64,000 nucleotides of DNA. Origin: Chitinophaga pinensis. Its GTDB lineage: Bacteria > Bacteroidota > Bacteroidia > Chitinophagales > Chitinophagaceae. Made by a program: the position numbers and the translations under genes. The stretch spans positions 1-64,000 of the forward strand of contig CAMCAY010000003.1 in NCBI GenBank assembly GCA_945872815.1, given 5' to 3'. A model generated the notes under the pieces. That model was not told the origin of the DNA. It ran no database searches and saw only the letters and a list, made by a program, of their open reading frames with translations. Positions 1,442 to 4,677 of the stretch are shown here, piece by piece. Position 1 is the first letter of the stretch, and every line of letters starts with the position of its first letter.

Positions 1442-3484
1442 TTAAAAATATTCTTGTAAAATGAATTTGAAATTATTTTTGTAGAATTTGTTCATGAAAA
1501 TCACATGAGGAAAACTGATACAAGAAATGAATACAAAAAAAATGGTAGTCATATTTTCGTTGAAGTAAGATAAATAATCATTTTTCAACAATAAAATAAA
1601 AGTGACAAACAATATTAATGCGCCAATAGTAAAGGGTAATGCCTTTAAATACAAAGATGCATTGTTGACTTTCATTGCTTTTTTTAAATGCGACCATCCA
1701 CTCAAGCTATGTTGCCCAATGAAGTATAAACCAAATGAAGTGAGAAGTGGCAGTTCTGTGCTCACTAAAAGCATAAGAATAGTTAGTAACATCTTTCTGC
1801 TTTTTTCGAAGATAGACCAACCAAATCCTGCGATTGCAAGAAATATGCTTATCTCTTTTCCTTGAATATTATTTAATGGAATTTTCAGAACATTCATATT
1901 TCCAAGGATACTGTTGGTTTCGGCTAAATGCCCACAAAGAATGATACCTAAAATTAAATATCCCCAAGAAGCATTCTTTAATGCATTTGTATTTTGGGGT
2001 TGCCATTCACGCAAATCTGTTTGTCCAAAATGCCATGCAGAATAACCGATAAAAAAAAGTAATGCAATTGTTGGAAAAAACAACCATAACACAAAATTGA
2101 AAAAAGTGAAACTCAAATAATTAATTATGAAGCCGAGTTTAATATTGACTTTTAAATTATTTGATTCGAGAAGGTGATCAACGGCTCCATGCGGGATGCC
2201 TATCAAAAACATACCCGCTATAAAAATTACTATTTCAATTCCATGAAATATATTGGGTGTGATTTTGTAGACAAATAATAATGACAATGACAAAAGCAAC
2301 AAAATAAAAGGAGTAATTAATCTTTGTATTTGTGATGAAACTACCCACAGAACTGCTTTTAAGAAAGGCTTTATTGGTAAAGTTGAAAAAATACGAATGT
2401 CTTGTATAAGTGTTGTCTTTTCGTCTAGAAATTGAAGCACATCTTTTGTTTGATTTTTTTTGAACAACGATTGAAATATTCTTTTGCCTTGAGAGGGTTG
2501 TGTTGAAAGTATTAGAAGCAAGAGACGATCATAAAATCTAAAACGCGAAATATTGTTTATACGAGCTGACTCAATTCCTTTCTTTAAATTATTTGCCAGC
2601 TTTTCAGAATGGGTAAACATATTTTTAAACGCATATCCAGTACTGGGTTTAATAGCACCTGCTCTGCCTCCGATTGAGATGACTCCTGGGATAGATTCGG
2701 TAGAAATATTTGCTGTGCTCATGGGAATACATCCTATTTCCGTATCGTGAATTTTATAATTACCAAATCGTTGTATTATGTATGAATGTAGAATAGGGTC
2801 AGCTTCTTTTTGAGTAATAGAAGCCAAACCAAAACGAGTTAATTCAACTAGTGTATTACCATTACCTAATGGCAATACATACATAAATTGAGTAGAGTCT
2901 AATTGTTCAACATTGAAGTCCATTAGATCCACACAATTTATTTTTGAAATGGGTTCTTCAGTTGTTATCACATATCCGATGAAGGATTGAAGTAAGTGAG
3001 CATCCTCTTTTTTAAGTGGTAAATATTGTGGTGGGCGACTATCAAAAACTATTGTAGATTCCCATATATCTGTGGTTGTAATTACTTTAACAGCTTTTTC
3101 AATGGAGACCAACTCAATAACTTTACTATCTACTCGTTGTAAATTATGTTGGATAATGATGCGTCTTAATTCATTGTAAACATCAATTCCAGATATATGA
3201 AAGTAATTTTTAGGGAATAAATATTCCGGCGTATTTCTATTAACACTAACTTGATCCCATTTATGACTAATTAAATGTTGACATTTTAATGTAAGATCTT
3301 CATTTTGTTCAGACCAAAAACAAAATGTTTTGTCATTATTCTTTTTTTTATCTGGATCTATAATTAAAACCTTTTTATCTTTCAAAAGTCCATGCCTCTC
3401 CATACTCATGAGCAATAATGTGGTGGATGCCCCAGCTCCTACAAAGAGATAGTCCACTTTATTATGTTGTATTTGAATTGACAT
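1442..3484 (-). CDS. Fusion protein: lycopene beta-cyclase (CrtY) + Brp/Blh beta-carotene 15,15'-dioxygenase
   Basis: N-half: VGAGASTTLLL, DSRPP, FMYVLPLGNGNTLVELTRF, IPMST...GGRAGAIKPSTGYAF (lycopene cyclase). C-half: GIPHGAVDH, SAWHFGQTDL, GQHSLSGWSHL, FPHVIFM (Blh histidine motifs). One uninterrupted ORF. Confidence 0.93.
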   Translation of the reverse strand: MSIQIQHNKVDYLFVGAGASTTLLLMSMERHGLLKDKKVLIIDPDKKKNNDKTFCFWSEQNEDLTLKCQHLISHKWDQVSVNRNTPEYLFPKNYFHISGIDVYNELRRIIIQHNLQRVDSKVIELVSIEKAVKVITTTDIWESTIVFDSRPPQYLPLKKEDAHLLQSFIGYVITTEEPISKINCVDLMDFNVEQLDSTQFMYVLPLGNGNTLVELTRFGLASITQKEADPILHSYIIQRFGNYKIHDTEIGCIPMSTANISTESIPGVISIGGRAGAIKPSTGYAFKNMFTHSEKLANNLKKGIESARINNISRFRFYDRLLLLILSTQPSQGKRIFQSLFKKNQTKDVLQFLDEKTTLIQDIRIFSTLPIKPFLKAVLWVVSSQIQRLITPFILLLLSLSLLFVYKITPNIFHGIEIVIFIAGMFLIGIPHGAVDHLLESNNLKVNIKLGFIINYLSFTFFNFVLWLFFPTIALLFFIGYSAWHFGQTDLREWQPQNTNALKNASWGYLILGIILCGHLAETNSILGNMNVLKIPLNNIQGKEISIFLAIAGFGWSIFEKSRKMLLTILMLLVSTELPLLTSFGLYFIGQHSLSGWSHLKKAMKVNNASLYLKALPFTIGALILFVTFILLLKNDYLSYFNENMTTIFFVFISCISFPHVIFMNKFYKNNFKFILQEYF

Positions 3485-3504: not shown

Positions 3505-3543
3505 AAAAAAAGGGTTCTTCATATTTTGAAAGAACCCTTTTTT
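3505..3543 (-). terminator. Rho-independent terminator-like hairpin between rhodopsin and crtY-blh
   Basis: AAAAAAGGGTTCTT-loop-AAAGAACCCTTTTTT. Confidence 0.75.
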
Positions 3544-3560: not shown

Positions 3561-4277
3561 TTAGTCTTCATTTCTGCTAAGTGAATAGATTACTAAACCA
3601 AATCCAATTTTATTTATTGCATCAGCAATATTATAAACGATGTCCATAGCGTGAGATGCTGCAGCAGGATCACTTACCAATTGAATTCCGAATAAGCCTC
3701 CTGGAGTTCCCAATATATATCCTAATGGATAAATTGCCCAACCAACTAAAACAAACCATGCTAGAATTCTAGTAGCTTTTGCTACTTGTGGACCTGCAGT
3801 TTGAGATAATTTTGCAACTTCTCCGAACCATATTAGATACGCAATGTAGAAATATGCTGCCCCTGAAATAACACCCCAAAGTACGCTATTGTCACGATCG
3901 ATTGTCTCTCCGAAATAGCCTGTTACTAACATAACTAGTGAAGCAAGAATTAACTTCCAAAGTAAACCAATTTTTGCACCTGCTTTTTTGGTAATCAAAT
4001 AGAATTCTACGCACATCAAAGGAACAGTTAGTATCCAATCAACATATCTGAAAAAGGTAGGAGATTCTCCAGTCTCTAGATTGTAACCTCTCATGTAGTA
4101 GTAGTGAACCGCTGCGATGAAAGTAATCAATCCTGATACTAAAACTGATGTTCTCCATTTTTGTGAAGTGTTGCTCAATTCAAAAAAGAAGAAAACAGAT
4201 GCAGCCATCATGGCCATTGTGCCGATAAAAAACGTGAAAGCCACGTAATTATCACTGGCGATTTTTAAATGTTCCAT
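3561..4277 (-). CDS. Proteorhodopsin (light-driven proton pump type)
   Basis: Seven-TM opsin; FRYVDWILTVPLMCVEF (D97/T101/E108 equivalents, Met at position 105), H75 equivalent (AAVHYYYMRG), retinal Lys in DAINKIGFG. Confidence 0.97.
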   Translation of the reverse strand: MEHLKIASDNYVAFTFFIGTMAMMAASVFFFFELSNTSQKWRTSVLVSGLITFIAAVHYYYMRGYNLETGESPTFFRYVDWILTVPLMCVEFYLITKKAGAKIGLLWKLILASLVMLVTGYFGETIDRDNSVLWGVISGAAYFYIAYLIWFGEVAKLSQTAGPQVAKATRILAWFVLVGWAIYPLGYILGTPGGLFGIQLVSDPAAASHAMDIVYNIADAINKIGFGLVIYSLSRNED

Positions 4278-4677
4278 TTTGTTTTAAATTTTGGTTTTTC
4301 CTACTCTTATGGATTTTCGGTTACTCCCCAGTTTGGATGGTTTCTGGACTCCGATAAAATAAACACACAAAATGGCAAAATGTTTAACAAAAAAATAAAA
4401 AAATTAAACAAACAAAGAATCAATAGATTATCAGCATTTAAAATATAATAATAAAAAATTATTTATAATTATTGTTTATTGGAGCATATTTAGCATATTC
4501 TTATAATGTATTATACATTAATTTATTGTTCTAAATAATTTTTCTTATTTTTCTATTCCTATTTGACACAGAAATGCTTTTTTTATTATAATAATGTAGA
4601 AATTAAATTTAAAATTATTTTTTCAAAGATGATTGAAAATTGAACTCCTCTTTTTCTACAATAGAATTGTTTGTAAT

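Follow-up and report, generated by a model that had tools for sequence, protein, structure and literature searches.

A crtY-blh gene fusion adjoining proteorhodopsin in Bacteroidota: domains, distribution and probable role in retinal formation

Retinal supply makes up the second half of phototrophy by rhodopsin, and carotenoid flux has to be divided between retinal and pigments. Several arrangements of the genes for lycopene cyclization and carotenoid cleavage have been described. In Thecamonas trahens, CrtI, CrtB, CrtYc/d, and Blh are joined in this order in one protein (PMC10016063). In Rhodothermota-like bacteria and haloarchaea, CrtYcd and blh are neighbors, and the lycopene cyclase is used together with blh for retinal (PMC5877348). 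The Blh of the uncultured marine bacterium 66A03 is a characterized 15,15'-dioxygenase, in which mutation of His21, His78, His188, or His192 leaves less than 5% of the activity (PMC9227343). Systems close to the present case also include proteorhodopsin-bearing Bacteroidota in which crtY and blh are separate adjacent genes, often close together or overlapping, and in which a rhodopsin gene is often nearby.

The window analyzed here is the whole stretch of 64,000 nucleotides at the start of a contig (CAMCAY010000003.1, assembly GCA_945872815.1) of a freshwater Bacteroidota genome assigned to Chitinophaga pinensis. In this window, the same two families are found within one polypeptide, and no description of a bacterial CrtY-Blh fusion was found in the open-access literature searched. 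The features concerned are the following.

1442..3484, minus strand: crtY-blh fusion gene, an uninterrupted open reading frame of 680 aa with an ATG start and two full-length domains
2354..3454, minus strand: CrtY lycopene cyclase domain, aa 11-377 (PF05834), with FAD-binding glycines, DSRPP, E214 in LVELTRF, and KPSTGYAF
2216..2350, minus strand: CrtY-Blh junction, approximately aa 379-423, from the AlphaFold2 model; ungapped in most relatives
1484..2215, minus strand: Blh/BCD dioxygenase domain, aa 424-667 (PF15461 and TIGR03753), with H432, D436, H485, H592, H660, and the G596/H599 variant
3506..3543, minus strand: terminator-like hairpin of 15 bp with a T tail, in the spacer from rhodopsin to the fusion, from a terminator scan
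3561..4277, minus strand: proteorhodopsin (light-driven proton pump) of 238 aa (PF01036, E 3e-42), with a DTE motif and Met105 as read by hand
4294..4359, minus strand: DUF805 RNA motif of the rhodopsin leader, Rfam RF03081, scored by cmscan at 57.6 bits against a cut-off of 51.1

Domains and predicted structure of the fused protein

A preliminary description of the locus had placed a single uninterrupted frame of 680 aa at 1442-3484, and these coordinates are right; the strand, which had been left unstated, is the minus strand, the only one on which the fusion frame exists, since the plus strand across 1442..3484 has many stops. The HMM search proposed in that description recovers both domains at full length in Pfam. 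PF05834 (Lycopene_cycl) matches aa 11-377 with model positions 1-378 of 380 (E 4e-39; 135.2 bits against a cut-off of 23.4), and PF15461 (BCD) matches aa 424-667 with model positions 2-266 of 267 (E 3e-35; 122.4 bits against a cut-off of 28). Among the NCBIfam models, the Blh model TIGR03753 is passed (143.4 against 95.25), and both CrtY models stay below cut-off (TIGR01790, 100.9 against 209.5; TIGR01789, 64.7 against 215.2). Because three standalone CrtYs of Bacteroidota likewise remain below the cut-off of TIGR01790, scoring 86.7-90.5, the cut-offs of these two models appear to miss the Bacteroidota branch of CrtY.

The view that the CrtY domain is complete holds for its key residues as well. 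Conserved with the Pantoea CrtY are G16, G18, Q166, E214, E249, and G283, which include the dinucleotide motif and the active-site acidic residue. E214, aligned with the E of the Pantoea motif LLIEDTHY and conserved in 93/93 aligned CrtYs, is the residue that we take to be equivalent to the catalytic E196 of P. ananatis CrtY.

The AlphaFold2 model, for which 30 fused relatives were used (pLDDT 87, pTM 0.76), consists of an FAD-enzyme fold followed by a helical membrane domain. In this model, the C-terminal helices of CrtY continue without a break into the transmembrane helices at the start of Blh through a mostly confident junction, and no flexible linker is predicted between the two domains. 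Fold searches with the CrtY half led to FAD enzymes, and those with the Blh half returned nothing informative among the top hits. Within its own genome the fusion is the single match, constituting the sole Blh of this rhodopsin-bearing organism. Judged by its sequence, 1442-3484 is a real, conserved, and bifunctional-looking gene, a variant of the known retinal pathway of crtY and blh.

Rhodopsin, transcription and the two carotenoid branches

The location of the fusion directly downstream of proteorhodopsin, noted earlier, is borne out: its ATG lies 76 bases past the stop of the PF01036 gene on the same strand, and the best PDB chains of the rhodopsin are named proteorhodopsins (E 6e-90). Rhodopsin and the fusion are the only gene pair common to most loci, with variable flanks; in the window, the contig start adjoining the fusion (37-1208) carries an AbiEii-like toxin gene and a partial AbiEi antitoxin match. 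In most loci, the rhodopsin protein shows 90-95% identity, compared with 37-75% for the fusion. A recent transfer of rhodopsin was rejected as an explanation of this identity, since the fourfold sites of the rhodopsin loci are only 30-64% identical, being largely diverged in opsin and fusion alike. Because of this divergence, the high identity is attributed mainly to purifying selection, with the opsin constrained far more than the chromophore enzyme.

The hairpin between the two genes recurs at the same place in relatives, where two-sided compensatory changes occur in 8/14 pairs (15 loci). It is also found 3' of rhodopsin in loci without a downstream fusion, with folding energies of approximately -28 to -36 kcal/mol computed on 90-base flanks. 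Since only about 22 bases lie between the hairpin and the fusion ATG, transcription of the fusion probably depends on read-through of the hairpin. Acting as a partial terminator, the hairpin would hold read-through below the level of opsin, so that much opsin and little enzyme would be made. Directly upstream of rhodopsin, the DUF805 RNA, an orphan cis-regulatory RNA, is present by pattern in 19 of 29 related rhodopsin loci. Loci L014, L015, L030, L031, and L140 have no DUF805 RNA, and the upstream gene reads like a CRP/FNR-type regulator instead; the RNA was not seen in the pigment operon L130 either.

Lycopene must come from genes elsewhere in the genome, as had been proposed, and crtI, crtB, and idi are indeed located on another contig (C20), crtB being present in one copy. 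The pigment operon on this contig (L130, 2668-10476) has the order crtI-crtB-idi-crtD-cruF-crtZ-crtYcd, together with a CarH-like MerR/B12 regulator and an ECF sigma factor. It encodes a CruF-like hydratase and a CrtYcd-type lycopene cyclase, which belongs to another family than CrtY. The CrtZ-like hydroxylase that it also encodes had no library hit and was recognized by reading of its sequence. This gene content suggests the formation of saproxanthin-like or other hydroxylated carotenoids under the control of the CarH-like B12 regulator and the ECF sigma factor.

By hand alignment, the rhodopsin has a glycine at the position of bacteriorhodopsin Trp138. In xanthorhodopsins, this position is the site that opens a window for the carotenoid antenna. 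A hydroxylated carotenoid antenna on the present rhodopsin is possible, and the xanthophyll branch may be its supplier.

A search for the two cyclase families (CrtY and CrtYcd) found a second lycopene cyclase in 20 of 24 fusion genomes, either an unrelated CrtYcd (n=17) or a second standalone CrtY (n=3). CrtZ is present in 23/24 of these genomes and, by comparison of coordinates, lies directly beside the second cyclase in 17/20; rhodopsin is present in all 24 (24/24). Two genomes of the same genus have kept CrtYcd and CrtZ and lack both rhodopsin and CrtY, and so the fusion. Because the second cyclase stands by crtZ, rhodopsin is universal among the carriers, and the rhodopsin-less relatives are without the fusion, the pattern fits two parallel branches, one in which the fusion would be dedicated to rhodopsin and another in which pigments would be formed through the second cyclase and CrtZ.

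Taken as a whole, the gene very probably encodes a bifunctional lycopene-to-retinal enzyme that forms a dedicated rhodopsin branch and has a single origin. The N-terminal FAD-binding CrtY domain of the membrane-associated fusion would convert lycopene into beta-carotene, the C-terminal multi-helix Blh domain would cleave the latter at the 15,15' bond into two retinals, and these would be loaded on the proteorhodopsin encoded just upstream. Rhodopsin and the fusion would then represent a two-gene light module, gained or lost as a unit and supplied with lycopene by the crtI-crtB pathway of the chromosome. Xanthophylls would, in most carriers, be derived from the second, separate cyclase beside crtZ, with the fusion as the retinal branch. 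Within this scheme, the present data show the domains, their conservation, the selection on them, the genomic context, and the phylogeny; we infer the catalytic activity of each half, the dedication of flux, and the hand-over of beta-carotene between the domains.

A stricter form of the scheme, in which lycopene is channeled to retinal without release of beta-carotene and is insulated from a xanthophyll branch served by a non-homologous cyclase of its own, as a two-cyclase division of labor, appears unlikely. An absolute channel is argued against by three genomes (G344, G360, and G456), in which a CrtZ homologue is present and the fusion is the only cyclase detected in the two families searched. 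Since CrtZ is present there with no other detected cyclase, beta-carotene probably leaves the fusion, and these genomes argue that it cannot serve retinal alone in them unless another cyclase type exists. The same three genomes speak for the strongest alternative, which is plausible while stopping short of probable: the fusion would merely co-express and co-localize the two enzymes, and beta-carotene would be freed into the membrane, to be used by CrtZ and other enzymes, with neither channeling nor commitment of flux. The membrane solubility of beta-carotene and the unfused state of adjacent crtY-blh pairs in many relatives agree with this alternative, whereas the second cyclase of most carriers, usually located by crtZ, would be redundant if the fusion provided free beta-carotene. 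The earlier proposal that the fusion commits carotenoid flux to retinal has only indirect support, from the second cyclase in the pigment operon, and the three genomes in which the fusion is the only cyclase detected argue that beta-carotene can leave it.

Blh histidines, distribution and origin of the fusion

The Blh domain had also been described as complete, which is true of its length and of most of its histidines. H432, H485, and H592 occur in 57/57 aligned Blhs and H660 in 56/57; the first three match the essential His21, His78, and His188 of the 66A03 Blh by mapping of motifs. The exception is the equivalent of His192, four residues after H592, which is Gly596 in the fusion; three residues further on is His599, a clade-specific histidine at +7. 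The +4 histidine does not seem to define the Blh family in Bacteroidota, because it is absent in 14/21 unfused Blhs of the tree set, and neither +4 nor +7 is fixed in other Bacteroidota Blhs. H599 may take over the role of His192, the +4 and +7 positions sharing one helix face.

Both halves of the fusion are under purifying selection, with dN/dS ratios of 0.11-0.20 (CrtY) and 0.10-0.19 (Blh); across the 45 codons of the junction, the ratio spans 0.09-0.44. These values bear on a second alternative, according to which the Blh half is degenerate or altered through loss of the His192 position, the protein then being mainly a lycopene cyclase or cleaving another carotenoid. The replacement of an essential histidine by Gly596 and the histidine at +7 in 35/36 fused proteins are consistent with such a change, yet it is highly improbable in view of the constraint on the Blh half, the invariance of the remaining essential histidines, the TIGR03753 score well above cut-off, the status of the fusion as the sole Blh in a rhodopsin-bearing genome, and the lack of the +4 histidine in many other Blhs from rhodopsin genomes of Bacteroidota.

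A scan of 85,462 species genomes yielded 33 related loci, most of which carry an uninterrupted fusion, the rest being cut by contig ends. Whole-genome searches added L035, L036, and L054-L057, which brings the number of further uninterrupted fusions to at least 36, from independent Bacteroidota genomes and with identities down to approximately 35%. Their MAG labels include Chitinophagaceae, Sphingobacteriales, Flavobacteriales, and Cryomorphaceae, and several have pond or other environmental sample names. The fusion is accordingly a widespread clade-level trait in Bacteroidota and not a one-off, which answers the survey suggested in the preliminary description. Its statement that crtY and blh are normally separate is equally sound for most Bacteroidota: among 396 sampled Bacteroidota genomes, 58 have a Blh and about 5 of these carry the fusion, which occurs in 3 of 148 genomes in the family of the source organism.

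Two further candidates were rejected. An apparent Actinomycetota fusion (L004), from a GTDB record under the title Streptomyces griseus, falls within the Chitinophagaceae fusions, pointing to a mis-binned or mislabelled MAG. A 958-aa frame in G375, considered as a second bacterial Blh fusion, is explained by chance in GC-rich DNA, and its upstream part is overlapped by a CrtYcd gene. A viral origin was likewise rejected, no relative being found among the viral contigs; plasmids gave standalone CrtY matches only.

In the Blh tree, all 36 fused rows fall in one clade with support of 100/99, together with a single unfused row (G056). In the CrtY tree, obtained by a quick method, a branch with support of 97 separates the fused rows from every other Bacteroidota CrtY. 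The grouping of fused forms in both trees fits a single fusion event. Unfused crtY-blh neighbors in the same order are common in Bacteroidota, and overlaps of a few bases are frequent. Because the fused forms group together and such pairs are common, the fusion probably came from an adjacent crtY-blh pair, once and long ago. In G267 (L120, 184-2373), crtY and blh share a frame with one TGA between them, an arrangement that offers a natural picture of the pre-fusion step.

The unfused member of the clade, G056 (L140, 5381-7172), has rhodopsin followed by Blh alone, the latter nested within the fused clade. No CrtY above the family cut-off was found in G056, and CrtYcd and CrtZ occur together elsewhere in its genome. 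By its position in the tree, G056 is a case of secondary loss of the CrtY half. As it keeps rhodopsin and Blh without that half, the fusion is not indispensable.

The possibility that two genes were joined by an artefact of assembly or a frameshift, for which G267 might be cited because one wrong base at its single TGA could fuse the in-frame genes, is refuted by at least 36 independent loci with an uninterrupted fusion down to about 35% identity, by the conservation of the junction itself, and by a frame that is unbroken in every relative long enough to tell, which also excludes the frameshift considered in the preliminary description.

Significance and comparison with known systems

The clade suggests a genomic solution to the division of carotenoid flux, namely a second cyclase that is physically linked to the retinal-forming enzyme and passed on with rhodopsin. 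For engineering, the fusion would offer a naturally occurring single gene for the conversion of lycopene to retinal, and it helps to predict which freshwater Bacteroidota are able to charge rhodopsin.

Compared with the separate adjacent genes of other proteorhodopsin-bearing Bacteroidota, the fusion has the same two families in the same order, but as one polypeptide in place of two, and the separate proteins mostly share about 22-35% identity with the fused domains. Where Flavobacteriaceae-type genomes carry the separate genes, crtY is usually the only cyclase. The 66A03 Blh belongs to the same family as the C-terminal half, and the equivalents of its His21, His78, and His188 are present in the fusion, although the 66A03 enzyme is standalone and differs in having His192 where the fusion has Gly596. 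The CrtYcd-blh neighbors of Rhodothermota-like bacteria and haloarchaea, which are matched by the G375 locus (L181), are unfused and involve a cyclase that is non-homologous to CrtY. The protein of Thecamonas trahens resembles the fusion in that a single polypeptide has a Blh domain on the C-terminal side of a lycopene cyclase; it differs in belonging to a eukaryote, in its unrelated membrane CrtYc/d cyclase, and in the additional fusion of CrtI and CrtB, and the two proteins are of independent origin.
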